Below are positions 12,562 to 33,935 of a stretch of 64,000 nt of DNA, piece by piece. The position numbers were made by a program, and so were the translations under genes. The stretch is from Fidelibacterota bacterium (GTDB taxonomy: Bacteria; Fidelibacterota; UBA8477; JABMPR01). Numbering within the stretch: the stretch's first letter is position 1; every line of letters begins with the position of its first letter. The stretch spans positions 1-64,000 of the forward strand of contig JABIFX010000104.1 of NCBI GenBank assembly GCA_018650445.1, read 5' to 3'. The notes under the pieces were generated by a model. That model was not told the DNA's origin, searched no databases, and saw only the letters and a program-made list of their open reading frames with translations.

Positions 12562-13911
12562 TTAGTCACCATAAATATTCAGTAGGCCTGCCTTTAAATA
12601 ATAGTGTTTAAGAATCTGGTCAAATGTACTACCCTTGGTGGCCATGGCAACGGCGCCACTCTGACACATGCCTACACCGTGTCCCCAGCCAGCGCCATAC
12701 AGCACGATCTTGTTCCCCTCTCGCTTTACATAAAACGCTGAACTTCTCAATGAGGGGCTAAAGAGCTGCCGCAGGGTGAGTTCTCCATCTATGGTAAGTT
12801 TGCCCCTCTCAAAAACAAGGCGGGCTTTATAGATTCGCCCGGAAGACCCTCGTTTTAAAACCCTGATTCTTTTAAACATGCCTAACTTCTTGTCGTCTGT
12901 GAGCATGTCAGTAAGCTCTGCATTACTGAATTCACGAGACCAGCGAAAATTTTTCTTACTCCAGCCCGGAAGGAAGGTGTTTGAGTCAGGATTACAATAC
13001 ACATCAGGGGAAGATTTTATCCAACGCCTGGCTCTCCAGCTCCACTTCAGGCTGGGTCCCTTCCGACTATCGTTGTCTGGTAGAGAAACCTGATAGCTCT
13101 CAAGTCGATTTCGGCCTGGCCAGACATTCTTGATCAGTTCAGCTCGACCACCGCAGTTTGAGGCGTAGTAGGCATTCATGGGTTGCCCACCCTCGCTGAT
13201 GATCAGTCCAGCTGTTTCATCAACGGCTTGGTCGGATAAATAAGTGCGTTTTTTATTACCACTGAAAACCTGGCACTCTACATCAGAGGTGAGATCATAG
13301 TACTCTCCACTATAGAGTTTTGAGGTCAGAGCGATGATGGCTTCGGATCTGGCAGATACCGCCTGGGCTTTGAGGGCTTCCAGGGGTGAGGTGCCACCAA
13401 TTTCATAGGGGACAACACCCTTTAGGTAGGTTTCCAGGGGCAATTGAACGACGACATTCATTTCTTGGTTTGTTCCGATGTATACGTGAAAAGCCCCTTC
13501 ATAAATCCGATCTTCTACCCCAGCCCACCACCAACCAACACCATAAGGCACAGATGCGATGCCAATAGTGGATGTGTCGCTGTTTGAGCCAAACATAAAC
13601 GAAGGGGTTTTAGCTAGCAGGGCACCTGAGGTGTCAAAAACGGATATCTGTCCAGCCCGATTGATAAGTTGAATCTGAGAATCAACAGGGAGGGTCATTT
13701 TTGAAGTTGATGTGTTGCGAAAAGACCATTCACCCATGAGAGAAATATTGAGTGTATCAAGGGTGTTGATGATTCGAACCCGGACTTCCGGCTCTTGATT
13801 GAATAGTTGCTGAGTCCATCCAGAGCCTACAACAAGTGCAATAAGAAGCAGACGTTTTATGTTGGGGTGATTTCCCCTGCGGTGGCAGAGGGTTTGTTTA
13901 AAAGTGTTCAT
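12562..13911 (-). CDS. SpoIID/LytB-domain secreted protein
   Basis: About 449 residues with an N-terminal hydrophobic signal (RLLLIALVVGSGWTQ). The SpoIID core includes LETYLKGVVPYEIGG, ALKAQAVSARSEAI, YYASNCGGRAELIKNVW and the C-terminal GAGWGHGVGMCQSGAVAMA. SpoIID is a lytic transglycosylase that trims peptidoglycan during spore engulfment; homologues in non-sporulating Gram-negatives act on cell-wall glycan. A glycan-cleaving role in the periplasm is inferred. The start is ATG 13911 (GTG 13929 is also in frame), overlapping the end of the receiver gene by 14 bases, which suggests coupling to the two-component genes upstream. Confidence 0.88.
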   Translation of the reverse strand: MNTFKQTLCHRRGNHPNIKRLLLIALVVGSGWTQQLFNQEPEVRVRIINTLDTLNISLMGEWSFRNTSTSKMTLPVDSQIQLINRAGQISVFDTSGALLAKTPSFMFGSNSDTSTIGIASVPYGVGWWWAGVEDRIYEGAFHVYIGTNQEMNVVVQLPLETYLKGVVPYEIGGTSPLEALKAQAVSARSEAIIALTSKLYSGEYYDLTSDVECQVFSGNKKRTYLSDQAVDETAGLIISEGGQPMNAYYASNCGGRAELIKNVWPGRNRLESYQVSLPDNDSRKGPSLKWSWRARRWIKSSPDVYCNPDSNTFLPGWSKKNFRWSREFSNAELTDMLTDDKKLGMFKRIRVLKRGSSGRIYKARLVFERGKLTIDGELTLRQLFSPSLRSSAFYVKREGNKIVLYGAGWGHGVGMCQSGAVAMATKGSTFDQILKHYYLKAGLLNIYGD

Positions 13912-14263
13912 CCAGAATGTCCCGCACACGTTCCGCGCTAACTGGTTTTACGAGATACCCTAAAGGATTCAATGCGTTAATCTGTGAAATAATCTCATCA
14001 TCATGATATCCAGTAAGGAAGATGATTTTGGTTTGAAGTGATTTCAGGATTGCTTTTGCAGTTTCGATTCCATTGAGCTTACCAGCCAGATTGACATCCA
14101 TCAGGATGACATCTGGCTTCTCTGAGAGAGCGATTTTTATAGCCAGGTCACCTCGAGTGGCCAGGGGACAGACTCTATAGCCGGCGCTCTCAAGACCCAT
14201 CTTTAGGGAGGATGCGGTGATGACTTCGTCTTCAACCAGGAGAATACGTGTTTGGTCTGTCAT
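13898..14263 (-). CDS. Single-domain response regulator (CheY-like receiver)
   Basis: A 121-residue stand-alone receiver. The acidic pocket is E11/D12 (LLVEDE), the phospho-acceptor is D56 in VILMDVNLAG, the switch threonine is T84 in FLTGY, and the conserved lysine is K106 in YLVKP. There is no output domain, so it relays phosphate or acts by protein contact. Receivers with the ATG..LNGIETA pattern often pair with HWE/HisKA_2 kinases, and one lies directly upstream on the same strand. The pair is therefore the likely signalling unit, with SpoIID as the next gene of the operon. Confidence 0.9.
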   Translation of the reverse strand: MTDQTRILLVEDEVITASSLKMGLESAGYRVCPLATRGDLAIKIALSEKPDVILMDVNLAGKLNGIETAKAILKSLQTKIIFLTGYHDDEIISQINALNPLGYLVKPVSAERVRDILDEHF

Positions 14264-14322: not shown

Positions 14323-17300
14323 CTAATCTAACTTAAGGCTGGGGATTGTTATAAAATACTTTACCCCGTCATTGGATGAAGTTTTTAGCTTACCAAAAAG
14401 CTGAAGATCAACGATATCCCGAATAATTTGCAATCCAAGTGTATCGGCACTGCTTAGATCAACACCACGGTTTAAACCAACGCCATCGTCCCCAATTTCT
14501 ATTGCAAGACCCGTTCCCTCCAAGCCCTGAGTCCGGACAGTAATTATTCCATCTCGATGGTCAGGGAAGGCATATTTCAAGGCATTACTGACGATCTCAT
14601 TTATGACGAGCCCCAAAGGGATGGCGGTTTGAATATTTATAGGAATTGACTCAGAACTACACACAAGCGTGATCTCTCCAAGGGTGGTTTTATAGGCTAG
14701 AATGAGGCGACTAACCAGCTTTTGAAGATAGGTGTCCAACATAATCTCGGCCAGATTTCTGGATCGATACAAAAGATCATGCACCATGCTCATGCTATAA
14801 ATCCGGTTGGTCATTTCAGTCACAACCGTCTGGATCTCAGCGCTGGTTGTTTTCATGCCTTGCATCTCAAGCAGGCCAACGATAACCTGCATGTTATTCT
14901 TGGTGCGATGATAGACTTCCTTAAGGAGAACTTCTTTTTCCTTGATACTGGTTTGAAGTTGGCGTTCTCTATCTTTTAACTCCTTGGTTTGTTCTTGAAT
15001 AAGCTCATCTGCCTGAGCCCTGACAAGAGCGCCACCAATCTGGTTGGCAAAAACCTTCAGCTTTTGCAGATCATCATCTTTAAAATGTTCAGCAGTATAG
15101 CTCTGCAAAGTGAAAGACCCGATTTGCTTTCCTTCCCAAAAAATGGGTGCAAACACCAGAGACAGGCTCCGTCTTGATGAATCTCCAAAAGGAGCAACAA
15201 TAGCCCCCTCGTTGTCTTCTTTACGGTTAACCAGTCTAGGGGTTGGAAGGATAAAGGCTGCCACGCCATCCTTTGCATTTAAGGTGTTCACTTCTGTTTC
15301 AACCTCCACAGGTCTGTCCTCTCCTGTAAAAGTATCTTGTGCAAACAATCCCACGGCCTGGTTTTCATCAATATTTATTCGATATAAAGCAAAAGCATCA
15401 TATTTAAAAAGGTTGTGTAACAGCGAGGCTGCAATAACACCAACCTCTCTAGGATTCAGAGAAACGGTAAGCTGGCGGGCAAGATGACGAAGCGAGTCAC
15501 GAAACCGCTCATACTCATTTTGTTCAGTCACATCCTGAAGAGAAGTTAGAAAGGCTTTGGGCTGTTTATCGGTATCAAAATGTGGAATATAGCGGATATC
15601 TAAATCATGAGCTCGACCATCGGGTCCATTTGAAGTTCTTGAGTAGGAGAGGGGTTCCCCTGTAGAGATTCTTGAGAGATAAGGTTGTATCTCCAAATAA
15701 GTGTCTTCGGGTATAATTTGATTAAAAGATTTACCGATGACCTCAGCCTTTTTATAACCATACCAGCCTGCATAAGCTTCGTTTACATAGAGATATTTTT
15801 CATTCATATCAGAATATGAAAAGAGCCCGGGAATAGTATCAACAATTAACTCAAGGAGTTCTTTGTTTTCAGCGATTTCCTTCCTGGCAGACTCTATCTC
15901 AGTCACATCATCCACTTGAACCAAAAAGGCCATAACCTCTCCATCCTCGGCTTTCACGGGTATCAAGGTTAACACAAAAACGAGGCTCCCCTTCGATTTC
16001 GACTGGTAGTGATGTTGGAAGCTGCAAACCTCGCCCCTTAATAAGCGCTGTTGGTATTTCAAACCAACGGCAAGATACTCTTCTGGAACTATTGTTTTGA
16101 GAGGTGCTCCCTGGATAGCTGTGCTGTTGACATGCATCAGCTTTGCAGCGGCTTGATTTACGTATAGGAGTGACAGATCCAGGTCTACTAGAACAAGAGA
16201 GCTGGTTAAGTGACCCGTGATGACCTCTAGCTGTTGACGGCTTTTATCCAGCTGGTCACGGGCGGTCACTCTATCATGAATATCGTTAAAGGAAAGCAGA
16301 ATTACGTTTTTGTCAGCCTGTTTTACTACAACACCGCTTATTTCAACCCAACGTTCCTCGCCTGCCAGAGTGAGGTATTTATGTTCTCGAACACCCTCGG
16401 ATGGCGTTCCTGTTTCGAGAAGACGCTCAACACTTTCACGTGAAACTTTTCGATAGTCTGGATGAACCAGAGAGAAAAGATCTATTCCCAAAACATCTTC
16501 CAAGCTGTCTGCACCAACAAAAGACAGGGCAGCCTGATTAGCATCCAATAAAACCCCCTTATCATGGAGGACCATAGCCGTTGGTGAATAATTAAAAGAA
16601 CGCCTGTATCTCTCTTCACTGTTAAGCAAGGCTTGCCGTGTTGCATGCTCGTCAGTCACATCACGAAAGGAGGTCATAATAATGGGACGCCCACCATCCT
16701 CAAGCGAAACAGACATCGCCTCTACATCTCGAACTTCGCCAGTAGAAACAACAAACTTCTGCCGCATTAATTTGTTTGGGCTTTTTGAGCGTAGTAAATC
16801 TTTGATTCTGTTCTTGGCGTCGGCGACTGAATCAGGGTGAATAAACCGAGAAAGGGGCTTCTTTAGGTATTTGTCAGCATCCTCAGTCTTAAAAAATGCG
16901 GCTGCAGCCTGATTTGCCCCCAGGAGGACGGCTCCATCATGGACAACAATGGGATCCGGTGAATTTGCGAACAAAGCCCGGTAGCGATCTTCAGCCACCT
17001 TGAGGTCAGTATAGTCCAACAGGGTACCGACAAACCCAGCGGGTTTCCCCTGGCCATCCAGATAGCGTGCTTTACGCAGTAGAACTTGACGCATCCGCCC
17101 AGAGGCATCTGTGAATTCCGTAGAATAGGACTGCTTCTTATTGCTTCTCAAGAGTTTTTTGTCATCAATCTCAACCTGAAGTGATGATGCTTTACCCTCC
17201 CAGACTTCAGTCACGGTTTTTCCTAGCATTTCAGTGCGGGTTTTGCCAAAAAAACTCAGATAAGCATCATTGAGCATCGTGTAGCGACCATCTGGATCTT

Positions 17301-18249
17301 TGGCATACATGGGGGTCGGGGTGGCATCCAATAAGGCTGAGATCTGGTTTTTTTGATCAAGGAGTAGTTCGTTTGTGCTGTTACGTTCAGATAAGTCACG
17401 AACGATACTCATCAGGGTACCATCGGAAAGTTTTCTAGAGTTCATCTCGATGGGAATAAAGCGTCCATCCTTTGTTTGAAAAACTCTCTCGGTAAGCACA
17501 TTCAAGCCTTCATTAAGGAGGTCATAACGCAAGGGTTTCCTGGCAAGGGTATCGGCTTCAATCAATTCAGTTAAATTCATTGAAAGGATTTCGGTGTTGG
17601 TATATCCAAGCAACCGAGTAGCTGCAATATTGGCCTGCACAATACGACCCTTCAAGTCCGCCTTGAGAATGATGTCACCCGCCTGATCAATCAGTTCTCT
17701 GTGTCCTCTCTCGCTGGCCTCCAAGGCTGCCTCTTTCTGTTTCAAGTCGCCATGTAGTCGGGCATGGAACAGGGCGAGCGAGAGCCTGGCTGAAAGAAGG
17801 GTGACGATTTCTTGTGTCTGTGGAGAAACACCATCCCGTTGACGAGACCCAATATTGAGAGAGCCCACCAAATCATCACCTATCACCAGGGGAACATCAA
17901 AAAAGGCTTGAATTCCTGCACTACTTAATGCCTTCACTACCGAGCTGGGGTTGGAAACAGTGGAAATATCGTGAATATATCTTGGCTCCACGGGCGTGTC
18001 GGCCTTTTGTCTGACAAGGCCTGAAAGTGGGTGTTTATCTCCAGATGAGAGATGGGGTATCGAGGTGTCTTTTGTGAAAACCTCAAACGACTGGTTGTGG
18101 ATGTCATTGAGTGTGATAGATACACGCTCGAGTTTTAAATGAGTGTCGAAAAAGGAAAGCGCCTTTTTTGTGACACGTATAGTCTCAGGCCAGGAGATAA
18201 CCTGGTCGAAATCCAGGAGTAATCGAATCGAGTGTTGATTGTCAGGCAT
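14323..18249 (-). CDS. Multi-PAS/GAF sensor histidine kinase, HisKA_2 type
   Basis: About 1308 residues with no membrane segment, so a cytoplasmic sensor. Order: a GAF domain (about 15-170), six PAS domains (about 180-920; each begins with a pattern such as YRALFANSPDPIVVHD or LLELIVDTIPGLFSYSD), a second GAF (about 925-1095), a HisKA_2 dimerisation domain with the phospho-accepting His in KEVLLKEVYHRTKNNMQVI (about 1113), and an HATPase with GLVINEIVSNALKYAFP and EIGDDGVGLN. The start is ATG 18249 behind GGAG. The ligand is unknown; PAS/GAF stacks commonly sense light, oxygen, redox state or small molecules. The receiver at 13898-14263 is the likely partner. It is divergent from the DUF3078 gene. 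Confidence 0.9.
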   Translation of the reverse strand: MPDNQHSIRLLLDFDQVISWPETIRVTKKALSFFDTHLKLERVSITLNDIHNQSFEVFTKDTSIPHLSSGDKHPLSGLVRQKADTPVEPRYIHDISTVSNPSSVVKALSSAGIQAFFDVPLVIGDDLVGSLNIGSRQRDGVSPQTQEIVTLLSARLSLALFHARLHGDLKQKEAALEASERGHRELIDQAGDIILKADLKGRIVQANIAATRLLGYTNTEILSMNLTELIEADTLARKPLRYDLLNEGLNVLTERVFQTKDGRFIPIEMNSRKLSDGTLMSIVRDLSERNSTNELLLDQKNQISALLDATPTPMYAKDPDGRYTMLNDAYLSFFGKTRTEMLGKTVTEVWEGKASSLQVEIDDKKLLRSNKKQSYSTEFTDASGRMRQVLLRKARYLDGQGKPAGFVGTLLDYTDLKVAEDRYRALFANSPDPIVVHDGAVLLGANQAAAAFFKTEDADKYLKKPLSRFIHPDSVADAKNRIKDLLRSKSPNKLMRQKFVVSTGEVRDVEAMSVSLEDGGRPIIMTSFRDVTDEHATRQALLNSEERYRRSFNYSPTAMVLHDKGVLLDANQAALSFVGADSLEDVLGIDLFSLVHPDYRKVSRESVERLLETGTPSEGVREHKYLTLAGEERWVEISGVVVKQADKNVILLSFNDIHDRVTARDQLDKSRQQLEVITGHLTSSLVLVDLDLSLLYVNQAAAKLMHVNSTAIQGAPLKTIVPEEYLAVGLKYQQRLLRGEVCSFQHHYQSKSKGSLVFVLTLIPVKAEDGEVMAFLVQVDDVTEIESARKEIAENKELLELIVDTIPGLFSYSDMNEKYLYVNEAYAGWYGYKKAEVIGKSFNQIIPEDTYLEIQPYLSRISTGEPLSYSRTSNGPDGRAHDLDIRYIPHFDTDKQPKAFLTSLQDVTEQNEYERFRDSLRHLARQLTVSLNPREVGVIAASLLHNLFKYDAFALYRINIDENQAVGLFAQDTFTGEDRPVEVETEVNTLNAKDGVAAFILPTPRLVNRKEDNEGAIVAPFGDSSRRSLSLVFAPIFWEGKQIGSFTLQSYTAEHFKDDDLQKLKVFANQIGGALVRAQADELIQEQTKELKDRERQLQTSIKEKEVLLKEVYHRTKNNMQVIVGLLEMQGMKTTSAEIQTVVTEMTNRIYSMSMVHDLLYRSRNLAEIMLDTYLQKLVSRLILAYKTTLGEITLVCSSESIPINIQTAIPLGLVINEIVSNALKYAFPDHRDGIITVRTQGLEGTGLAIEIGDDGVGLNRGVDLSSADTLGLQIIRDIVDLQLFGKLKTSSNDGVKYFITIPSLKLD

Positions 18250-18420
18250 AAAGATAATCTCCAATATGAAGGGCAAATTTCACCATGGAGGTCATTTAAT
18301 GCAAACCATAAAATGCCTTGCAGACAGTGTGGTAGCACGCTGTTTTGACTTGAATAAGCGGGTTTTCGTGATTAATTGTGAATTTATAATGAGGGAAACG
18401 AGGATAGCAGGAAAAATATT

Positions 18421-19254: not shown

Positions 19255-19558
19255 ATTCATATTGCAATTTAAATAAACCCAGCCTCAACTGTGGTTTTTA
19301 TTTGCATCTCTGAGAGTTTTCGGTTAACATAGCTTCGTCGAGAGGCAACCATCTTCAAACAAACTATCGGAAGAACATGAGTGTTGTGTAGCTACAAACC
19401 AGTTGTTGGTTTATGGTGAAGAGTTTCCCAAAAAGGAAACACAAAGCCTCTTTATGCAAAACAAGACTCCACAAATCATGATGGAGTAAATAATCAAAAA
19501 GCGAACAGGGTAAAGTTTTATCTTTAGATAAAACTCACCCAAAAAGAAAGGAACGATT
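19255..19558. other. Intergenic region with several inverted repeats
   Basis: 304 bases with no credible gene. It holds three small inverted repeats: AAACCA/TGGTTT (19396-19401/19407-19412), GTTTCC/GGAAAC (19423-19428/19435-19440) and the strong palindrome at 19514-19535. The last 45 bases form the leader of the small secreted peptide gene. None of the first two has a clear U-tract. Confidence 0.5.
19514..19535. promoter_or_regulatory. Perfect palindrome upstream of the peptide gene
   Basis: AGTTTTATCT (19514-19523) and AGATAAAACT (19526-19535) are exact reverse complements separated by TT. The site ends 23 bases before the ATG of the small secreted peptide. It is AT-rich and not followed by a T-run, so an operator or a leader hairpin is more likely than a terminator. 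Confidence 0.5.
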
Positions 19559-19795
19559 ATGAGTCGTTTTAGAAATATCCTTTTAAGTGGGCTGGTGGCG
19601 CTTTTGATGGTAGGAATGGTAAGTGCGGGAGATGTGGATTCAACCACTCCGGCAGCCGATGTCAATGCAGGAATTAATATCTATGTGGGGACATGGAACC
19701 CCGCAAAAACGGATTGTCTCCCGGTTGGGGCAACCGATTGTGTTAATATTGGCATTAGCTTCGATTTTACCTGGTTGAAGGATCTGTTTAATTAA
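19559..19795 (+). CDS. Small secreted two-cysteine peptide precursor
   Basis: A 78-residue product: a clear signal peptide (FRNILLSGLVALLMVGMVSA, cleavage likely before GDVDS) and a mature part of about 54 residues. The mature part has only two cysteines, spaced C-x7-C in DCLPVGATDCVNIG, and an aromatic C-terminus (FDFTWLKDLFN). AAAGGA lies upstream of the ATG. I do not recognise a family. Two exported cysteines with a MauE/DoxX-like redox protein two genes downstream suggest a disulfide-bonded secreted peptide. The arrangement recalls Bacteroidota small-peptide/beta-propeller loci, but I cannot claim homology. Confidence 0.75.
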   Translation: MSRFRNILLSGLVALLMVGMVSAGDVDSTTPAADVNAGINIYVGTWNPAKTDCLPVGATDCVNIGISFDFTWLKDLFN

Positions 19796-19808
19796 AAAAG
19801 GATGAAAG

Positions 19809-19830
19809 AGGGCGGGGTAAAACCCGCCCT
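19809..19830 (+). terminator. GC-rich hairpin between peptide and downstream gene
   Basis: AGGGCGGG (19809-19816) pairs exactly with CCCGCCCT (19823-19830) around a 6-base loop. The following AATATTGGGT is not U-rich, so this is a weak terminator, attenuator or mRNA-stabilising hairpin. It lies 13 bases after the peptide stop and 16 before the next ATG, a position suited to making more peptide than downstream protein. Confidence 0.55.
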
Positions 19831-19846
19831 AATATTGGGTGCTTAC

Positions 19847-21016
19847 ATGAAAAAAGGGACGGTTGTGTTATTGTTTATAGCTATGGTTGCTTTTGGTCAA
19901 TTTGAGGTCATATCAATCTCAGAAGGGTTGTCTGAAAAGACAAGAGAGCGTTTGTGGCCAGTTTTCAAAAGTGGTGCTATAACGATAAACACACAGGAGA
20001 TGATCATACCAGACCAAAACAGTTTATACATACAAAGCAGGGCAACCCCTAACGACTACACAAAAATCAACTTAAAGCGGCATAAGGCGGATTATTTTAC
20101 CGTATATGAAGCAACCGCGAACGATGAGATATTTGCCTATGCAGTGGTAGGCAGTGATGGTCGGTTTTACATTTTTGAAAGAGGGAGAAAAACAGGTGCC
20201 ATACAAGGGCCTGTTTTAAGACATGGACTTACAGCAGAAAGGATGTTTTTGCTTGAGGGAAACAAGTTGGTGGCGACTGGCGCATATAGACCTGAGTTGA
20301 TATACTATCTGGATCTATACAAAAGCAATTCAATTAAAGACCAAATCAAAAACGCAAAAAAAAACTTTGACCCGCTCTACATAAACCACAAAGCTTACAC
20401 GCTCTCAGTTTATGATAAATATCTCACTGAAATAGATTCAGGAAATATTATTGATAGGACAGGGGATAATGCACGAGCATATGAAGGTTTATATTTAACT
20501 CAAGCAGTTGATATAACCAGGGATGAAGTGTTATATCTTATAGACAATGACCAGGGGTATGTAATTGAGAGATATACGGATATCACAGTACTTGATTCAA
20601 GTTTCGAAGTTGTAAACCCAAAATATAAAAAGTTCCCTGCTGTTATGACGATGAAGGATATGGTAGAACTCAGATTGCAGGACAGAGCATATTCTGTACC
20701 CTATGCTTTATACCATAAAGAAGGATATTTAATATCGACCTTTTTTCAGGCGCCTGTACGCTTTGGGGATATAAGGCCTCCATACTATTATGATATTTCG
20801 TCAGAAAGCGGAAAGCTGCTTTACTCGGGGGAGCTAGAGTATCCTTTTCTCTGCGAAGATGACGGAGACAAGGTCTTTCTGTATGTAAAACATGAGGGTG
20901 GGTGGTTTGAGGCCGACAAACACTTCCTGGTAGGTGTCACTGTCGAAGATCTATTGAAGGATCGCGTATCAAAAGCTACTATTGACGCCTCTGTTAATAA
21001 CCTGGATAAAGACTAA
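19847..21016 (+). CDS. Secreted protein of unknown function, possibly beta-propeller
   Basis: About 389 residues from ATG 19847 (an upstream in-frame ATG at 19802 would read through the hairpin). The N-terminus is a short signal peptide (MKKGTVVLLFIAMVAFGQ). The body has repeated beta-rich stretches (DEIFAYAVVGSDGRFYIFER, RMFLLEGNKLVATG, LYSGELEYPFLCEDDGDKVFLYVKHEGG) that look like blades of a propeller similar to the Bacteroidota 6-bladed type; this is pattern judgement only. Base composition is more AT-rich than most neighbours. It sits between the peptide gene and the MauE-like gene in one operon; binding or presentation of the peptide is a guess. Confidence 0.65.
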   Translation: MKKGTVVLLFIAMVAFGQFEVISISEGLSEKTRERLWPVFKSGAITINTQEMIIPDQNSLYIQSRATPNDYTKINLKRHKADYFTVYEATANDEIFAYAVVGSDGRFYIFERGRKTGAIQGPVLRHGLTAERMFLLEGNKLVATGAYRPELIYYLDLYKSNSIKDQIKNAKKNFDPLYINHKAYTLSVYDKYLTEIDSGNIIDRTGDNARAYEGLYLTQAVDITRDEVLYLIDNDQGYVIERYTDITVLDSSFEVVNPKYKKFPAVMTMKDMVELRLQDRAYSVPYALYHKEGYLISTFFQAPVRFGDIRPPYYYDISSESGKLLYSGELEYPFLCEDDGDKVFLYVKHEGGWFEADKHFLVGVTVEDLLKDRVSKATIDASVNNLDKD

Positions 21017-21020
21017 TATC

Positions 21021-21473
21021 ATGATGGGTGGATTTGATTCAAGTCGGTTTGGTTTAAATGCTCTTGAGTTTTTACGATGGTTACTGTCGATTGGGTTTTT
21101 CTTTCTGGCTGCGAGAAAAGGTATGCTGATTATAGACCACGGTATTGAGCCGTATAAAATTATAACAGATGCAGCGGGGTTGCCTGAATTTGTGAGCTAT
21201 TATGGAGTGATTGCTGTCTTTGTTGAGTTAAGCATCGCTGTCGGTATCTGGGAAAGCAAAACCTTTAGATCAGTTATTGTAATTACAGGACTGTTAACGC
21301 TCATGGGTGTTGCTATTAGTTTGGCGCTAATAAGTTTTAAAATAAATTCTGACTGTGGATGTGGATTGTTAGGTGATAGCGAGTACGGATTGCTGTTCCA
21401 GAAGGTGTTAATTCTCGCGTTGCTGGTCGTGATGTACAGAAGTAAAGAAAAATTCTTCCCAGTTGAAATTTGA
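21021..21473 (+). CDS. MauE/DoxX-like redox-associated membrane protein
   Basis: About 150 residues with four membrane helices: LEFLRWLLSIGFFFLAARKG, a second after GLPEFVSYYGVIAVFVEL, a third at SVIVITGLLTLMGVAISLALI and a last at LLFQKVLILALLVVMY. After the third helix comes INSDCGCGLLGDSEYG, the cysteine motif of the MauE/DoxX group that aids periplasmic disulfide or redox maturation. ATG 21021 or the adjacent ATG 21024 is the start, four bases after the previous stop. Its cysteines could serve the two-cysteine peptide at 19559. The family assignment is good; the substrate is inference. Confidence 0.75.
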   Translation: MMGGFDSSRFGLNALEFLRWLLSIGFFFLAARKGMLIIDHGIEPYKIITDAAGLPEFVSYYGVIAVFVELSIAVGIWESKTFRSVIVITGLLTLMGVAISLALISFKINSDCGCGLLGDSEYGLLFQKVLILALLVVMYRSKEKFFPVEI

Positions 21474-24785: not shown

Positions 24786-27700
24786 CTAATTAACGACCAC
24801 CCTAAAGGTAATGGTTCCGTTTTCACCCGTCTCGAGATCAAGGGCTCTTTCATATTTGATGTCGGTGACAGGCGCAGTTTGCAAGGCGTCATATCCACCG
24901 GCGATCACATGCTGAAATGTGATGGTCATGCCAGTACCTGCGGCAGAGTTTTCTACATAGGTTGCATTTTCTGGAACGGCTTGATCAACCACGACATTTT
25001 TTGCGATACCCACACCCACATTAGAATAGGTAACTGTATAAGTCAGGGTATCACCGGGCAATGCAATATTGAGATCGACAGTTTCAAGCAGAAATAACTC
25101 AGGCAAAGGCATGGGAAGTCCCGTTCCGCTAATGCTAAAGGTATAAGGGCTTTCGTCATCGTCATCAGAGGCAATGCTAATTGTGGCGGTACGTACTCCT
25201 TCAGCCCCAGGAATAAATCGGATGTTAAAGTCGGTGGATCCGCCGCCGGCAGCAATGGTGGGTTGTGGTATGAGGGTTAGTGTAAAATCACTGGCGTGAG
25301 TACCAGAAATGGATATATAGGGAGACCCGCCTGTCAGGGTTAGTACGGCACTACCTGTATTCTCAATTGTATAGCCTACCCAGCTTGATGAATCGACAAT
25401 GGTATCCTCAAAAATTGTACTGTCGGCCACAGAAGGTGTTACATCACCACTTGCGACGGATACACCATTACCCAAAATGCTTATTTCAGGACTAGCAATA
25501 CCAGTACCTTGAATACTAAAATCAAATGGATTTTCATCATCATCGTCATTGGCAATACTTAGGCTGGCTGTTCTTAAACCAACGGCCGTTGGATTAAATG
25601 TAACCGTAAAGGCAACCGAATCTCCAGGAGCCACCGATACAGCGGCCGGTTGACTGCTAACCAGGAAATCTCCTGCATGGGTACCACTGAGAACAACTAG
25701 AGGAGTACCGCTCAGGGATAGCGAACCGCTACCAATATTCTTTATATAAAAGGTGTTTTCTTGTGTGGCAGTTAGGATATCCTTACTACCAAAGTCTGTA
25801 TTATCCGTGTTGATGGGAGAACTATCTCCATCAGCAATGGATTCACCAAGGCCCAAAACAGTTATTTCTGGCGTTGCCAGACCAATACCCTGAATCGAGA
25901 AAGTATATGGATCTTCATCCAGATCGTTATTGGCTATTGAAAGGGTTGCCTCTCTTAACCCTGCCGCATTTGGATTAAAGGTGACTGTAAAAGTGGTTGA
26001 GTTATTTGTGGCAATGGGCGAGGATGGTGCACTTGTGACAGTAAAGTCAGCAGCATGGGCGCCTGTTACATCCACATAAGTAGATGGGTTTGAGAGAATT
26101 AGATTTGCGTTTCCAGTATTAAGAATAGAAAAGCTTTGAGCCTGGGTTCCAGTAAGAATATCCTCTGAACCAAAATCGGTGAAGTCGGAAGCGGTAGGAG
26201 TAATATCGCCATCAGCGACAACATTTCCATTTCCACTAACCTGAATTTCTGAGGCAAGACCAAACCCTCGAATATCAAAGGTAAAGGGGTTTTCATCAGG
26301 GTCGGTATTGGCAATACTCACGGTGGCCGATCTCAAACCTTCAGTTGCCGGGATAAAACGAATATCAAAACTGGTGCTGTCATTTGAAGCCACCGTTTCA
26401 GATGGTTGGACCTTAACATGAAAGTCTGCTGCATTCGTTCCGGAAATGGAAACCCTGGGAGTTCCATTTAAGGTTAGCGTGGCACCATTGCCATTAAAAA
26501 TCTTGTAGGTATGAATCACAGAATCAATCTGAGCGTCGACTGAGCCATAATCTGTATGGTCTAATGTCGATGGCGAATTATCATTATCAGTGATGTCAAC
26601 ATTATTGCCTTTTATGCTGATTTCCGGCGCAGACTGTTGATAAACACCAGCATCAAGACTGGAAAGATAGACACCAGAACTGATTACCAGGGCGGCAGAT
26701 TCTCCCGTCCCGGCATTAATGTCACTGTCAACACTATCATCACCACCAGCATCCTGTGTTGAAAAAACATAACCTGCCGGCAAGCCGGTAAAGTATAGTC
26801 GATATGTGTTTGGACTTAGGTTTGTGAACGAGTAGCGGCCGTTAGCATCCGTGATTGTGGTTGCAACGCTGGCGCCGCCATCGATCTTAATTTCTACGTC
26901 GATTCCGGGTACACCTGTTTCCCCGACATTTTGAATACCGTCTTCATTCACATCAAGCCAGACAAAATCTCCCACTCCAGTCGTTTTGAATCCAGCATCC
27001 CGGGAATTGTCAACGCCACTAATATTTAGAAAAAATGTTGCCGTCTTACCACTGTTTGATGGATCGGCATCATTATCAAGGGCATCATTTACTCCCTGGT
27101 CTAATGGAGAAAGCACAAATCCAACAGGAGGGTTGGTAAAAGCGAGATAATAATCACCAGAAGCAAGACCTTCAAAAACATAGGTACCATCAGCGCCACT
27201 TACAACAGAACCCAGTGCATTATCGCCAGAGTCATATAAGGTGACTGTAATACCAGCCATAGCATCTTCTCCGGCATCCTGAATACCATCACCATTGTTA
27301 TCCAGCCAGACCATATCACCAATAACACCATCTGACGGACTGGTACCATTTCCCTGGAGATCGAACAGATAAGGTGATTCACCAGGATCATTGTTGGCTA
27401 TGGAAATTGTGGCATTTCGCGTACCAACACTTGACGGATCAAACTGAACAACGAAAGTCGTGCTGTTCCCTGTGGTTACTGTTGATGCAGGTGCTGTCGT
27501 GACTGAAAAATCTGCTGTATGAGCCCCTGAAAACGATATCGCACCAACCGTTAAATCGGCATTTCCATCATTGTTAATAGTATAAGTCACCAATTTAGAA
27601 CCTGAGGTTATGTCCACATCACCAAAAAGAGTGCTGTCGGATAAAGCAGGAGAAGTATCACCATTGATTATGGTTACACTATTACCAGAGACAGTCATTT

Positions 27701-30700
27701 CTGGAGTTGATACCCCGGTTCCTTCAATGCTAAATGTGTAGGGGTTTTCAGTCAGATCACTATTACCAAGGCTAATGGTTGCTTTACGAAGTCCTGTCCC
27801 CGAGGGGTTAAATTCAACAGTGAAAGCCACCGTACTGTTGGGAGCAACCAGAGGAGCTGGATTCGCTATGACGGTATAGTCGATGGTATGGGGGCCTGAA
27901 ATGGAAATAATTGGATTGTTTCCCAGAACGAGGTCATCGCTACCAGTGTTAAAAACAACAAACTCTTGTGTTGCCGTGAGGCCGCCAATTACCTCAATGC
28001 TTCCGAAATCAGTACCATCTGCAGTAGAGGGAGATAGGTCACCAGAAGAAATAACCTGCATGTTTCCTTTAACGCTGATCTCAGACAGAGATGTTGGGTC
28101 ATAAATACCAGTTCCCTGTATTGTGAATGTGTAGGGGTTTTCATCTGCATCATCATTTTGAATGCTCACGATGGCCTGGCGAGTTCCCAGGGCAAAGGGT
28201 GTGAAGGTGACTTCAAAACTAGTTGTACTACTATCAATAGCTATGGAGTTAGACGGCGTGGATGTAATGGTAAATTCAGAGGCGTTTGTACCACTGAAGT
28301 TCACATAGGGTGGTGGTCCGGTCAAACTCAATATGGCATAGCCAACATTACGAATAACAAAGGTTGCCGTAGCGGGTACACCAGAAATTTCAGCAGATCC
28401 CACATCTGTGAAATCAACGCTGGTGGGGAAAGCATCTCCAGATTCAATGACCAGGCCATTTCCTAGAATCTCTATTTCCTCATCGAGAGTTGAGGTTCCC
28501 AGACCCTGAATGTCAAAACTAAAAGGGCTTTCATCAGCATCATCGCTTGAGATAAGCACAGTTGCCTGTCTCACACCAGTAGTTGTTGGATCAAAGGCAA
28601 CCTGGAAAGAGAGTGATCCCGCAGCGTTTACTGTTGAGCTGGCAGGCTGTTGAGAAACAATAAAGTCTCCGGCGTTAGTGCCTGATATCTGAACGATAGG
28701 TAAGCTGGTCAGGGATAAAGCAGCTGATCCAACATTCTGTATGGTGAAAGTATGAGCAACTTGTGCCGCAAAAATATCACGACCACCAAAATCGGTCAGA
28801 TCCGAAGTTGATGGAGAGGTGTCACCATCAGCAATATCATTCAAGTTTCCCTGTAGAGCAATCTCAGGCGTGGCTGTACCGGTCCCCTGAATGTCAAATG
28901 TGAATGGATTTTCGTCTGCATCTGTATTGGCGATGGCGATCGTTGCGACGCGTAAACCAATGGCAGTAGGATTAAATTGAACCGTAAACGTGGTTGAACC
29001 ACTTATAGCAATCGGTGTTGAGGGATTTGAACTGATGGAGAAATCTCCAGGATTGGTTCCTCCAATTACAATAGGAGTGCCCCCCGTTAAATCAAGAGCA
29101 GCTGCTCCGGTATTCTGAATGGTGAAGACCACATGATTATATCCTGTGACAATATCAAAAATACCAAACTCAGTAGAATCGGCAGAGGACGGCGTGATAT
29201 CACCAGAAGCGATATCTTGTCCATTCCCCCGAACCGCTATTTCAGGAGCAAGCCCTGTTCCTTGAATATCAAAATCATAAGGGTTTTCATCAGGGTCATT
29301 GTTTGAAATGGATACGACGGCTGACCGTAGCCCATTATCACTTGGGTCAAAAGTTATCTGAAAGGTAGTAGTTCCGCTTGTTGTAACCGTTGTGGCCGGG
29401 GCCGTGGTTACCGTAAAATCTGCCGCATGTGTTCCCGAAATAGCAACTGTGGGTGATCCATTTAAAGTCAGGTCTGCTGCTCCACCGGCGTTATCAATGG
29501 TGAAAGTATGCACAACGCTACCAGTTGCTGCAGAGGTGGATCCAAACTCTGTATCGTCCGTTAGGCTTGGTGACGTGTCGCCATCAGGAATCGCAGTGCC
29601 ATTGCCAGTAATATTCATTTCTGGAGATGATTGTTGAGACATGCCTGCATCGATAGTGGCGTTAAAGTTACCAGCTCCTGCCGTGAATAGATCAGAGAGA
29701 CCGGAGCCTGTGTTTACATCACTATCGACAAGATCGGTAGCACCGCTATTTTGGTTCACAAACTGATAGCCACCAGGCAGATTGCTAACACGAATTCTAT
29801 AGTTAGCTGGAGTGACATCACTAAAGTAATATATTCCATCAGCATTCGAGATCGTTGCATCAACCGTTGAACCACTACTCTCTAAAACAAGCTCTACGGT
29901 AACCCCGGGAACACCAGGCTCGCCATAATCCTGATCACCGTTTGAATTGAGATCATCCCAGATAAAATCTCCAACACCAGTTGAAGTAAATCCAGCATCA
30001 ATACCTTCTTCAACCAGACCGACACCTACAAAGAAATTGGCGGTCTTACCTGTGGAGGGATTCGGGTCACTGTCATTAACATCATCTCCACCCTGGTCCT
30101 GCAGGGTGAAACCAAAACCAGTCGGTGCACCGGAAAAGATGATAAAGTATTCTGAAGGGGCCAGGTTTTGAAAAGAGTAGTCCCCGTTCTGATCAGAGAT
30201 AGTTGAGGCAATAAAAGGACTATCAATACTATATAAATCTACAACGACTCCAGCCAGACCGGGTTCTCCATCGTCCTGAATACCATCCGCATCACTATCA
30301 ACCCAGACCCTGTTTCCCACCTGCCCTGTAGTAGGAAGGGGCGCAGGGACCAATGGACAAGAAGCACCATCTGATTTGTTTAAATCAGATTCTCCCTGTC
30401 CCACATAGATACTAAATCCAGAAGGGGAAATCTTATACATTTTACCGCTTTGACTGTTGGTAGTAAAAATATAACCATCATCTGCTGTCCAGGCTGCACC
30501 GTAGTAGGCACTATTGATATTATTGCTATAGTCATCACTTAATCTACCAGTAATAGGAATGGTTGAGACATTGTGACTGGCTGGATTGTACTGATAAAGA
30601 GTGGCTTCATGAATCCCATAAAAGTATCCATCTGCATCCAGGAAAGCCATATCGATGGGAATCCAGGCAGTACCGCTGGTTGACTCGTAAGTTACAGTAC

Positions 30701-33700
30701 CCGTGCTGGCATCAAAAATTCCAACGGTAGTACCGTTTGCATCAAAAAAGTACATGTTTCCCGTAACGTCAAAATCAGCCCTCCAGGATAAAAAGTTTAT
30801 ATTTACGGACAGCACCTCAACGTCATAATTTCCATCGATGCGGATAATGTTGTCTCCAGAAACATCCCCATCCTGCTCAAAAGCATACAGCATTCCATCT
30901 TCCAGATTGTATCCAACGCCATTGATGTGATACCCAACGGTTTTTGCGATATCGTAATGGTATGGATTAACCGAGGCATCCATTGCGGCAACATCACCAT
31001 CAGTACCCCAGATATGGAAGAATCTGGAGATACAGGGAAAAGGTGTTCCCGCGACTTTTCCATATCCTGTTAACCAGAAACTGTAAGGGGATTCATTACT
31101 GTCACTATTTTCAATGGAAACAGACACATTACGACTGCCAGTTTGGGCCGGGTCAAACTCGACAATAAAATCAGAGCTTCCTCCGGCAGGAATTGAAGCA
31201 GATGGCATGCTGGTAACCGAGTACTCTCCGGCAGCATCTCCCTGAAGCTCAACCAAAGGATTCCCCGTTAAAACAAGGCTTGAGTCACCAGTGTTGAAAA
31301 TCGTATAAGTTGCGTATGCCTTAACCAAAACAGGATGAACATCACCAAAGTCAGTACTGTCCATTACACTTGGGGTGGCATCACCACTGGCTATCACAAG
31401 ATTGTTGCCACGGACCTCAATCTCTGGATAGGTCAAACCAAACCCCTCCACAGTGAAGGTGTATGGGTTTTCATCGCTATCATTATTCTCAATACTTACA
31501 AGAGCAGTCCGCAAGCCTGGAGCGGAAGGGGTGAAAGAAACATTAAAAGGCACACTTCCGGTAGGTGCCACAGGGGTGCTGGGTTGCAGGGTAATAGAAA
31601 AGTCTGAGGCATGAGATCCAGATAGGGTTACCAATGGTGAGCTGGCTAAAACCAGGTCATGTGAACCTGAATTGGTAATCATAAATGTCTGACCAAGCGA
31701 TCCGCTGGCAACTGGGATTGTTCCAAGATAGGTACCATCGGTTACCGATGTGCTATTATCTCCAGAGGTAATACTGTTAAGGTTTCCCTGAACATCAATT
31801 TCAGATAGAATGCTACCATCATTGACTCCAGCACCTTGAATTGCAAAAGAATAGCTGCTCTCATTCAAGTCATTGTTGTTGATGGTCAGGATGGCTGAAC
31901 GAGTACCCGCAGTTTGCGGATCAAAGGAAATCTGAAATGTTGTATAAGAGCCCGAGGCGATGGTACTGGAAGGCGGGCTATGAACACTGAAGTCACCAGC
32001 ATGGACACCACTAATAGTAATAAGTGGCCAGGAGCCAGTCAGGTTTAGCTGGGCAGGTCCCGTATTAAAAATTGTGTATGTAACTACGTATGTGGCTTCG
32101 CCCACTATTAAAGTGTCAACATCTGTTGAATCGTCAAATGAAGCTATCATATCACCATCGACAATTGATACGCCGTTTCCCTGAATATCTATTTCAGGAT
32201 TGATGGTTCCAGTACCCTGAATATTAAAAGTGTAGGGGCTTTCATCAGGATCATTATTGGTGATGGAAACAGTGGCTTGTCTTAGTCCAGTGGCTGGCGG
32301 ATCAAAAGTAATTTGAAAGGATTGAGTTCCTCCCAGGGGGCTAACGGTAGACGAGGCTGGTTGTTGACTGACGGTAAAATCAGCAGCCTGGGATCCAAAA
32401 ACAGAAACGAGAGGCACACCAGTTAGGGATAAATCACCAGACCCTGAATTGGTAATCGAATAGGTATAAATTGTTGAGCCAGTATTAATATCCGTGTTGT
32501 CGAAATCAGTATAATCTGCAGTTGATGTGGATGTCTTCCCATCAGCAATGGAGACACTATTCCCAACAATATCCATTTCTGGAACAACCGAGCCGGTTCC
32601 CTGAATGTCAAACGTATAAGGACCTTCGTCGGGATCATTATTAGAGATAGATATGGTAGCCGTTCTAATTCCTGAAGCATCAGGATCAAATTTGACAATA
32701 AAAACGCTGGTGCCGCCAGCAGGGCTAATACTATTAGTCGGTTGAGTTGTTATGGAAAAATCAGCAGCATGAGATCCTGACAGGATAACGGCAGGAGACC
32801 CGGTTAAAGCAAGACCACTTGTACCAGTGTTTGATATGGTAAAACTATGCTCCACATATTCGGTAACAATATCAGCACTTCCAAAATAGGTGTTGTCAGT
32901 GACGCTGGGAGAGGCATCTCCATCAAAGATAGACGTGCTGTTTCCCGACACGTCCATTTCAGGAGGACCTGAACCCACTCCTTGAATATTAAAAGTATAG
33001 GGGTTTTCATTTGGATCTATGTTGGCGATAGAGATCGTGGCACTGCGCGTTCCGAGATCTGATGGATCAAAAAGGACAATAAATATATCACTCCCGCCAC
33101 CACTTATCGTGGCCCCCGGCTGTGTCGTTACTGAAAAATCAGCAGCATGGGTTCCCGTGATATTGACAACAGGAGAACCAGTCAACAGTAAGTCTCCACC
33201 ACCATAATTGTAGAGCGTAAAAGTTTGTGAGACAGAACCAACCAGACTGTAAACAATTCCAAAATCAGTACCATCAGATGTACCGGGAGTCGTGTCACCA
33301 TCGGTGATATCAAGAGCATTACCCTGAATATTTATTTCTGGAGCTGTTGCCACATTAATGCTGTAATCTTCAACCTCACCGTCAAAACCATTTTCACAAC
33401 TCGTTGGATATGCATCCCATTTCGTAGAAATACGCATGGTGGTCGTGCCCAAAGTTGCCGTTCCAGGGATTGTTATCGAATAAGGGGATGCACTTGTCAA
33501 GTCAGCCTCAACATCGGTGGCTGTTCCGAGAACATAAGATTCATTGGTATCCTCGAAATCTGAATCCTGGTTCCAGTCAATCCAAACCATAGTATTGATC
33601 GTCCAATTACCATCGCTATTTACATAGACACTCAGGTCATACGAAATAGACTGAGAGACGGTTGTTGATATTCCTGTAAAATCTGAATAATCATTATCCT

Positions 33701-33935
33701 CAAGTATGGTTGAATTATCGATGGTGTTAAAAACAACCTGCCGAATTCCTGTGAAATAGCCATCAGAGCCATTACCCGTTGAAGCGCATTGCCCCGAGAC
33801 CTCAGTGCTGGTTCCAAACAATACAAACAGGAAGAGAAAAGATAGAGTATGCAGAGTTCTCGTATTGATGAAGCCGAGGTTTGAGCCTAATGAGCCCATC
33901 GTATTTTTAGAATAAATGGTTTGAGAAAGAGTCAT
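24786..33935 (-). CDS. Giant secreted repeat protein (choice-of-anchor D, SdrD B, GEVED, DUF11)
   Basis: 3049 residues. After a signal peptide (TLSFLFLFVLFGTSTEVSGQ) comes a GEVED domain (WIDWNQDSDFED...GEVEDYSI, to about 195). Six 'choice-of-anchor D' (ASPM-SPD-2-Hydin-like Ig) repeats follow (about 195-958), then a propeller-like segment (958-1198) and two SdrD B-like domains (VGNRVWVDSDADGIQDDGEPG type, 1200-1432). Next are six more D repeats (1437-2195), two more SdrD B domains (2198-2432), four D repeats (2433-2935) and a DUF11 domain (2940-3049). Sixteen D repeats in total each open with a pattern such as PEIxVxGNG..I.DGD..PS..D.T.FG. It ends without a visible sorting domain or anchor. 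Adhesion or surface-scaffold function is inferred. ATG 33935 lacks a strong ribosome site; ATG 33899 is also possible. Confidence 0.9.
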   Translation of the reverse strand: MTLSQTIYSKNTMGSLGSNLGFINTRTLHTLSFLFLFVLFGTSTEVSGQCASTGNGSDGYFTGIRQVVFNTIDNSTILEDNDYSDFTGISTTVSQSISYDLSVYVNSDGNWTINTMVWIDWNQDSDFEDTNESYVLGTATDVEADLTSASPYSITIPGTATLGTTTMRISTKWDAYPTSCENGFDGEVEDYSINVATAPEINIQGNALDITDGDTTPGTSDGTDFGIVYSLVGSVSQTFTLYNYGGGDLLLTGSPVVNITGTHAADFSVTTQPGATISGGGSDIFIVLFDPSDLGTRSATISIANIDPNENPYTFNIQGVGSGPPEMDVSGNSTSIFDGDASPSVTDNTYFGSADIVTEYVEHSFTISNTGTSGLALTGSPAVILSGSHAADFSITTQPTNSISPAGGTSVFIVKFDPDASGIRTATISISNNDPDEGPYTFDIQGTGSVVPEMDIVGNSVSIADGKTSTSTADYTDFDNTDINTGSTIYTYSITNSGSGDLSLTGVPLVSVFGSQAADFTVSQQPASSTVSPLGGTQSFQITFDPPATGLRQATVSITNNDPDESPYTFNIQGTGTINPEIDIQGNGVSIVDGDMIASFDDSTDVDTLIVGEATYVVTYTIFNTGPAQLNLTGSWPLITISGVHAGDFSVHSPPSSTIASGSYTTFQISFDPQTAGTRSAILTINNNDLNESSYSFAIQGAGVNDGSILSEIDVQGNLNSITSGDNSTSVTDGTYLGTIPVASGSLGQTFMITNSGSHDLVLASSPLVTLSGSHASDFSITLQPSTPVAPTGSVPFNVSFTPSAPGLRTALVSIENNDSDENPYTFTVEGFGLTYPEIEVRGNNLVIASGDATPSVMDSTDFGDVHPVLVKAYATYTIFNTGDSSLVLTGNPLVELQGDAAGEYSVTSMPSASIPAGGSSDFIVEFDPAQTGSRNVSVSIENSDSNESPYSFWLTGYGKVAGTPFPCISRFFHIWGTDGDVAAMDASVNPYHYDIAKTVGYHINGVGYNLEDGMLYAFEQDGDVSGDNIIRIDGNYDVEVLSVNINFLSWRADFDVTGNMYFFDANGTTVGIFDASTGTVTYESTSGTAWIPIDMAFLDADGYFYGIHEATLYQYNPASHNVSTIPITGRLSDDYSNNINSAYYGAAWTADDGYIFTTNSQSGKMYKISPSGFSIYVGQGESDLNKSDGASCPLVPAPLPTTGQVGNRVWVDSDADGIQDDGEPGLAGVVVDLYSIDSPFIASTISDQNGDYSFQNLAPSEYFIIFSGAPTGFGFTLQDQGGDDVNDSDPNPSTGKTANFFVGVGLVEEGIDAGFTSTGVGDFIWDDLNSNGDQDYGEPGVPGVTVELVLESSGSTVDATISNADGIYYFSDVTPANYRIRVSNLPGGYQFVNQNSGATDLVDSDVNTGSGLSDLFTAGAGNFNATIDAGMSQQSSPEMNITGNGTAIPDGDTSPSLTDDTEFGSTSAATGSVVHTFTIDNAGGAADLTLNGSPTVAISGTHAADFTVTTAPATTVTTSGTTTFQITFDPSDNGLRSAVVSISNNDPDENPYDFDIQGTGLAPEIAVRGNGQDIASGDITPSSADSTEFGIFDIVTGYNHVVFTIQNTGAAALDLTGGTPIVIGGTNPGDFSISSNPSTPIAISGSTTFTVQFNPTAIGLRVATIAIANTDADENPFTFDIQGTGTATPEIALQGNLNDIADGDTSPSTSDLTDFGGRDIFAAQVAHTFTIQNVGSAALSLTSLPIVQISGTNAGDFIVSQQPASSTVNAAGSLSFQVAFDPTTTGVRQATVLISSDDADESPFSFDIQGLGTSTLDEEIEILGNGLVIESGDAFPTSVDFTDVGSAEISGVPATATFVIRNVGYAILSLTGPPPYVNFSGTNASEFTITSTPSNSIAIDSSTTSFEVTFTPFALGTRQAIVSIQNDDADENPYTFTIQGTGIYDPTSLSEISVKGNMQVISSGDLSPSTADGTDFGSIEVIGGLTATQEFVVFNTGSDDLVLGNNPIISISGPHTIDYTVIANPAPLVAPNSTVAFTVEFNPSGTGLRKATISLGNSDLTENPYTFSIEGTGVSTPEMTVSGNSVTIINGDTSPALSDSTLFGDVDITSGSKLVTYTINNDGNADLTVGAISFSGAHTADFSVTTAPASTVTTGNSTTFVVQFDPSSVGTRNATISIANNDPGESPYLFDLQGNGTSPSDGVIGDMVWLDNNGDGIQDAGEDAMAGITVTLYDSGDNALGSVVSGADGTYVFEGLASGDYYLAFTNPPVGFVLSPLDQGVNDALDNDADPSNSGKTATFFLNISGVDNSRDAGFKTTGVGDFVWLDVNEDGIQNVGETGVPGIDVEIKIDGGASVATTITDANGRYSFTNLSPNTYRLYFTGLPAGYVFSTQDAGGDDSVDSDINAGTGESAALVISSGVYLSSLDAGVYQQSAPEISIKGNNVDITDNDNSPSTLDHTDYGSVDAQIDSVIHTYKIFNGNGATLTLNGTPRVSISGTNAADFHVKVQPSETVASNDSTSFDIRFIPATEGLRSATVSIANTDPDENPFTFDIRGFGLASEIQVSGNGNVVADGDITPTASDFTDFGSEDILTGTQAQSFSILNTGNANLILSNPSTYVDVTGAHAADFTVTSAPSSPIATNNSTTFTVTFNPNAAGLREATLSIANNDLDEDPYTFSIQGIGLATPEITVLGLGESIADGDSSPINTDNTDFGSKDILTATQENTFYIKNIGSGSLSLSGTPLVVLSGTHAGDFLVSSQPAAVSVAPGDSVAFTVTFNPTAVGLRTASLSIANDDDDENPFDFSIQGTGIASPEISILGNGVSVASGDVTPSVADSTIFEDTIVDSSSWVGYTIENTGSAVLTLTGGSPYISISGTHASDFTLTLIPQPTIAAGGGSTDFNIRFIPGAEGVRTATISIASDDDDESPYTFSISGTGLPMPLPELFLLETVDLNIALPGDTLTYTVTYSNVGVGIAKNVVVDQAVPENATYVENSAAGTGMTITFQHVIAGGYDALQTAPVTDIKYERALDLETGENGTITFRVVVN

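Follow-up and report, generated by a model that had tools for sequence, protein, structure and literature searches.

Three adjacent genes on the forward strand of the window, the stretch of 64,000 nucleotides analysed here, encode a peptide and a protein of predicted beta-propeller fold, both predicted to be secreted, followed by a MauE-family membrane protein, and the three are swapped between species as an allelic unit at a fixed locus. The trio is real and conserved. The genome that carries the studied locus (G000) belongs to a Neomarinimicrobiota genus and is a metagenome-assembled genome, 87% complete. Homologues were searched for in 60 relatives first and then in 245 genomes of the phylum. 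The gene for the secreted protein was found in 18 genomes. Sixteen of them are among the 19 of the genus; of the other two, G021 is from the same order and G028 is more distantly related. In all 18, the peptide, secreted-protein and MauE genes occurred in identical order and strand. The alignment of the diverse propellers held no stretch conserved enough for scanning the collection, and the MauE alignment was used for this instead. Within the genus the locus was fixed, with a DUF3078 gene upstream of the trio and an M16 peptidase gene usually downstream; contig ends broke it in a few of the genomes. Three congeners lacked the cassette, and the DUF3078 neighbour was likewise not found in these. 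The promoter was single and conserved and the intergenic gaps were short, which fits co-transcription of the trio. A search for the secreted protein on plasmids and phages gave no match. In the two distant cassettes, the peptide gene was accompanied by one or two propellers of the same family, a DUF5128/TolB-like six-bladed propeller, which is a feature of these two cassettes, and then MauE. An additional propeller-like lipoprotein was seen upstream of the cassette of G028 (L038, oriented 291–1301). Downstream of the M16 gene, most relatives also keep the gene for a 3049-residue protein (24786–33935, minus strand) with many near-identical repeats of the type PEI.I.GN...I.DGD.TPS..D.TDFG.

The peptide gene (19559–19795, plus strand) encodes a precursor of 78 residues. 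Its clear signal peptide (MSRFRNILLSGLVALLMVGMVSA, about 19559–19627) is followed by exactly two cysteines, Cys53 (19715–19717) and Cys61 (19739–19741), which form a C-x7-C motif; length, signal peptide and motif are as given in the first-pass annotation. In 15 further genomes of the genus a homologue of the peptide precedes the secreted-protein gene, so that the reading frame is not a chance one. The C-x7-C motif was invariant in 16 of 16 aligned peptides, and it recurred in the two distant ones as CAPSEMYGC and CVDNQRWAC. The two checks that the annotation had proposed, recurrence of the trio in other genomes and conservation of the peptide frame, were thus both positive. A low-confidence AlphaFold2 model of the peptide showed the cysteine loop between two strands and a short C-terminal helix. 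Pfam searches with the peptide yielded nothing beyond one chance match under the cut-off.

The second gene (19847–21016, plus strand) encodes a protein of 389 residues with a signal peptide. The start most likely lies at 19847 and not at 19802, where it had been assigned, because the first 15 codons from 19802 cross an intergenic GC hairpin and the homologues begin to align at 19847. This hairpin (19810–19829, plus strand) was found by folding between the peptide and secreted-protein genes and has no U-run; its shape was kept and its sequence differed in 15 of 15 genomes. The initial guess of a possible propeller holds at the level of predicted structure. The AlphaFold2 model (pLDDT 86, pTM 0.85) gave 362 Foldseek matches in the PDB at E ≤ 0.001, and among the matches listed nearly all were beta-propellers, the best TM-score among them being that of 3s9j, a Bacteroides DUF4221 propeller (TM 0.52/0.56). 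No Pfam or NCBIfam family matched the secreted protein. The Pfam families DUF4221, DUF5128 and TolB_like matched none of 15 members, and matches to the DUF5128/TolB-like profile were limited to the additional propeller in the two distant cassettes. Apart from the signal peptide, the propeller contains no transmembrane anchor. In one genome (G016, locus L027) the propeller gene carries two in-frame stops, which reflect decay or an error in metagenome assembly.

Bacteroidota possess loci in which an NVEALA peptide, a six-bladed propeller and MauE occur together, and the first-pass annotation had noted a likeness to peptide/propeller/MauE loci of that phylum. A literature search found no paper on such NVEALA loci. 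The resemblance stands in part. Both kinds of locus combine a small secreted peptide, a secreted propeller and MauE, and the DUF4221 propeller of Bacteroides as best TM-score among the matches listed, together with the DUF5128/TolB-like propeller of the distant cassettes, speaks for it. Against it, the propeller of the trio has no Pfam family and none of 244 phylum genomes matched NVEALA (PF14055), whereas the control, Bacteroides ihuae, did match.

The third gene (21021–21473, plus strand, with its start at 21021) encodes a membrane protein of 150 residues that matched the MauE family PF07291 with 34.9 bits against a curated cut-off of 27 (E 2e-8). All 16 homologues matched the family as well (E up to 1; best 5.6e-9), which upholds the earlier assignment of a MauE-like membrane protein with DCGCG behind the exported protein, and Cys112 and Cys114 of its C-x-C motif were invariant. 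Family membership, this invariant C-x-C and the invariant cysteine pair of the peptide suggest that the MauE protein takes part in disulfide formation in its secreted partner and point to oxidative maturation of the peptide. A second, far stronger MauE match (93 bits) lies elsewhere in the same genome (G000:C10:39013–39393). The SDP toxin system of Bacillus (SdpABC/SdpI) also joins a secreted disulfide peptide to membrane maturation proteins. The trio is like it in having a secreted peptide with a predicted disulfide and a putative membrane maturation protein, but has neither SdpA nor SdpI, and its match to SdpB was at chance level (16.5 bits against a cut-off of 178.4; two of 16 members, best E 0.005).

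In methylamine dehydrogenase, the heavy chain is a propeller and the small light chain needs MauE for its disulfides (the roles of the mau genes are in part those described in PMC7794033). The trio contains the same three kinds of part, a small cysteine-containing secreted chain, a propeller of about 390 residues and MauE, and could on this pattern encode the small subunit and the propeller of a secreted redox enzyme. We regard such an enzyme as very improbable. The peptide has only two cysteines and lacks a conserved Trp/Cys pair of the kind that a quinone cofactor would need, its GTW motif not being fixed in the alignment, where GTY and GSF variants occur. MauD and other maturation genes are missing, the fast allelic divergence described below is unlike that of an enzyme, and a PDB sequence search with the secreted protein matched no solved structure. 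A further likeness concerns the candidate RiPP clusters of Streptomyces from decRiPPter (PMC7794033), in which a MauE homologue beside a small precursor was proposed to serve in peptide modification. Here, too, a MauE homologue adjoins a small peptide gene, but the passages on those clusters mention no propeller, Streptomyces belongs to a different phylum, and the likeness concerns gene make-up. The system can be filed only under the MauE family and the beta-propeller fold.

The exchange of the cassette became apparent when loci were compared pairwise. L026 (G009) and L029 (G018) share 86% protein identity in DUF3078 and 86% in M16, whereas identity drops to 25% for the mature peptide, 34% for the propeller and 44% for MauE. 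At the DNA level, the two were 80–95% identical in the leader and most of the UTR (95% in the leader) and about 43% identical within the mature peptide, identity recovering at M16; the breakpoint coincides with the end of the signal-peptide codons. L025 and L026 showed the reverse pattern, with peptide and propeller 87% identical and the pair separated in the flank tree. In AU tests, the propeller data rejected the grouping of L026 with L029 (p 4e-94) and of L022 with L025 (p 1e-9), and the flank data rejected that of L025 with L026 (p 0.007). With DUF3078 distance controlled, partial Mantel tests correlated the mature peptide with the propeller (r 0.75, p 1e-4), the propeller with MauE (0.74) and the peptide with MauE (0.58). 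These Mantel and tree tests comprised 12 genomes, all metagenome-assembled. Peptide and propeller distances that correlate in this way are expected if a cognate pair is exchanged as one unit, and the description of the two as cognate in the first-pass annotation is thus supported by co-diversification after control for a flank gene and by tree incongruence. That whole alleles are exchanged at one fixed position fits a role in recognising relatives or in competition.

In the agr system, too, a peptide and its partner genes co-diverge within a variable block whose flanks are conserved, and the same arrangement was found here. The disulfide peptide might then carry a signal specific to a species or strain, with the propeller as receptor or carrier for it in the periplasm or at the surface, and the alleles would be pherotypes as in agr. 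The swapping of a co-diverging peptide and partner as one block would suit such a pheromone, as would the tightly controlled leader treated below and the presence nearby of a kinase and a response regulator. Still, we hold a pheromone to be rather unlikely. The exchanged block consists of peptide, propeller and MauE only and includes no AgrB protease, membrane sensor, histidine kinase or regulator, its chemistry differs from that of agr, and the propeller lacks a transmembrane anchor beyond its signal peptide. The PAS/GAF HisKA_2 histidine kinase (14323–18276, minus strand) and the response regulator (13898–14263, minus strand) are conserved upstream neighbours in most relatives and lie outside the block; the kinase is 71–79% identical among close genomes and does not track the alleles. 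The absence of any membrane sensor or regulator from the block tips the balance slightly towards competition and away from a pheromone, the main alternative. Neither a receptor nor an immunity protein is obvious, since MauE, too, varies along with the set, while a membrane anchor is missing from the propeller.

The transcription unit probably starts from a putative promoter, TTGCAT-N17-TAACAT (19302–19330, plus strand), which was positioned by reading the sequence and is present as TTGCAT-N16/17-TAANAT in 14 of 14 genomes. It precedes a structured 5' UTR of about 220 nucleotides (19337–19558, plus strand), defined by a 14-genome alignment and RNAalifold. The first-pass annotation had delimited a stretch, 19559–21473, that holds the trio and leaves out this conserved promoter and UTR (19302–19558), which are part of the system; its trio is confirmed and its interpretation supported, but the structured UTR, the constraint that acts on the leader as nucleotides and the swapping of alleles had escaped it. 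On the plus strand, the alignment shows a GNRA-type hairpin (19337–19346), a CTTC...GAAG hairpin (19353–19373) and an invariant GTAGCTACAA (19388–19397). Several further hairpins keep their shape and vary in sequence, while the motifs are invariant and unpaired. RNAalifold found four pairs with changes on both sides, and windowed folding of the UTR gave z = −2.74. Comparison with Rfam returned two chance matches, both under the gathering score. The element occurs in one copy per genome and upstream of the peptide gene only. Just 5' of the Shine-Dalgarno sequence lies a GGGU...ACCC hairpin (19508–19540, plus strand; 88–93% of cells paired), the stem of which, read by eye, is replaced by a different one in L033 and L035. 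The Shine-Dalgarno sequence itself, GAAAGGA (19546–19552, plus strand), had 97% of cells paired and is predicted to be masked by the leader. We know of no counterpart of the structured UTR or of a codon-constrained leader in the NVEALA loci.

Leader codons 7–17 (ATCCTTTTAAGTGGGCTGGTGGCGCTTTTGATG, 19577–19609, plus strand) are under constraint at the nucleotide level, their silent positions being nearly unchanged. In the codon comparison, eight of ten degenerate codons were identical in 13 of 13 genomes and the other two in 12 of 13, whereas in DUF3078 of the same genomes none of 43 invariant degenerate positions kept one codon. In predicted folds these codons pair back onto the 5' UTR and mask the ribosome-binding site. 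The UTR segment AUCAAA-N-AGCG (19493–19503, plus strand) is predicted to pair with CGCU-UUUGAU in leader codons 14–17 (19599–19608), with a probability of 0.77–0.96 in 14 of 14 genomes against means of 0.09–0.32 for synonymous recodings; the bulged base N varies between genomes. In 10 of 14 genomes, masking of the Shine-Dalgarno sequence by the leader UCCUUUU (19578–19584) was predicted with a probability of 0.6 or more, against about 0.1 in synonymous recodings. A covariation test of the conserved helices met too little variation, and the long-range UTR-leader helix showed no compensatory changes, both of its sides being nearly invariant. Total ensemble energies compared with synonymous recodings had z values of −1.6 to +0.5, the native sequence not being clearly better. 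With neither compensatory changes nor a clearly better energy, something else could lie behind the constraint on the leader. The leader might be kept as DNA, as an anchor at which homologous recombination exchanges the alleles downstream of it, and the identity breakpoint of L026 and L029 exactly at the leader end agrees with that. As the explanation in place of an RNA function we find this improbable, since the conserved stretch is also predicted to pair specifically with the UTR, and since the UTR hairpins persist while their sequences change, which homogenisation would not produce. The RNA and recombination readings are compatible and can both hold. The contigs of L028 (G005) and L030 (G010) end inside the conserved leader, and the missing upstream half of the latter was located by RNA-model search at a contig end (G010:C209). 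Copies of the leader as a repeat in its own genome, considered as the cause of these ends, were not found; coexisting related species in one assembly are the likelier origin.

Our best explanation for the locus, to which we give about an even chance, is a secreted peptide with a disulfide loop, controlled at the RNA level and matched by a cognate propeller, serving kin recognition or competition. One transcription unit would yield a precursor, about 78 residues long, which is exported by Sec and cut to about 55; for the propeller as for the peptide, export is suggested by the signal peptide. The mature peptide would be closed by a single disulfide across C-x7-C, probably helped by the co-encoded MauE-type thiol-redox protein, which may supply or tune its oxidation. 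The predicted folding of the leader over the ribosome-binding site would hold peptide translation down until some trigger opens the leader and switches translation on. To judge by their co-divergence, the secreted propeller would physically bind the mature peptide from the same allele. As to its biological role, the set would let close relatives recognise one another, most likely in competition. For a peptide directed at neighbouring cells, with the matching propeller neutralising or binding the cell's own type, we put the odds at slightly less than even.

More tentatively, the locus may represent a recognition system, undescribed so far, that members of an uncultivated phylum swap as alleles; in it, a secreted peptide with a disulfide loop would be paired with a secreted propeller, and the signal-peptide codons would double as translation-controlling RNA. 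If this is true, a leader conserved codon by codon would be a clear natural case of one sequence that acts both as a signal peptide and as a regulatory RNA. Matched alleles of peptide and propeller also allow binding to be tested directly. For Neomarinimicrobiota, known here from metagenome-assembled genomes only, a polymorphic, genus-wide locus of peptide and partner would, if confirmed, offer a concrete handle on how these bacteria recognise or compete with their relatives.
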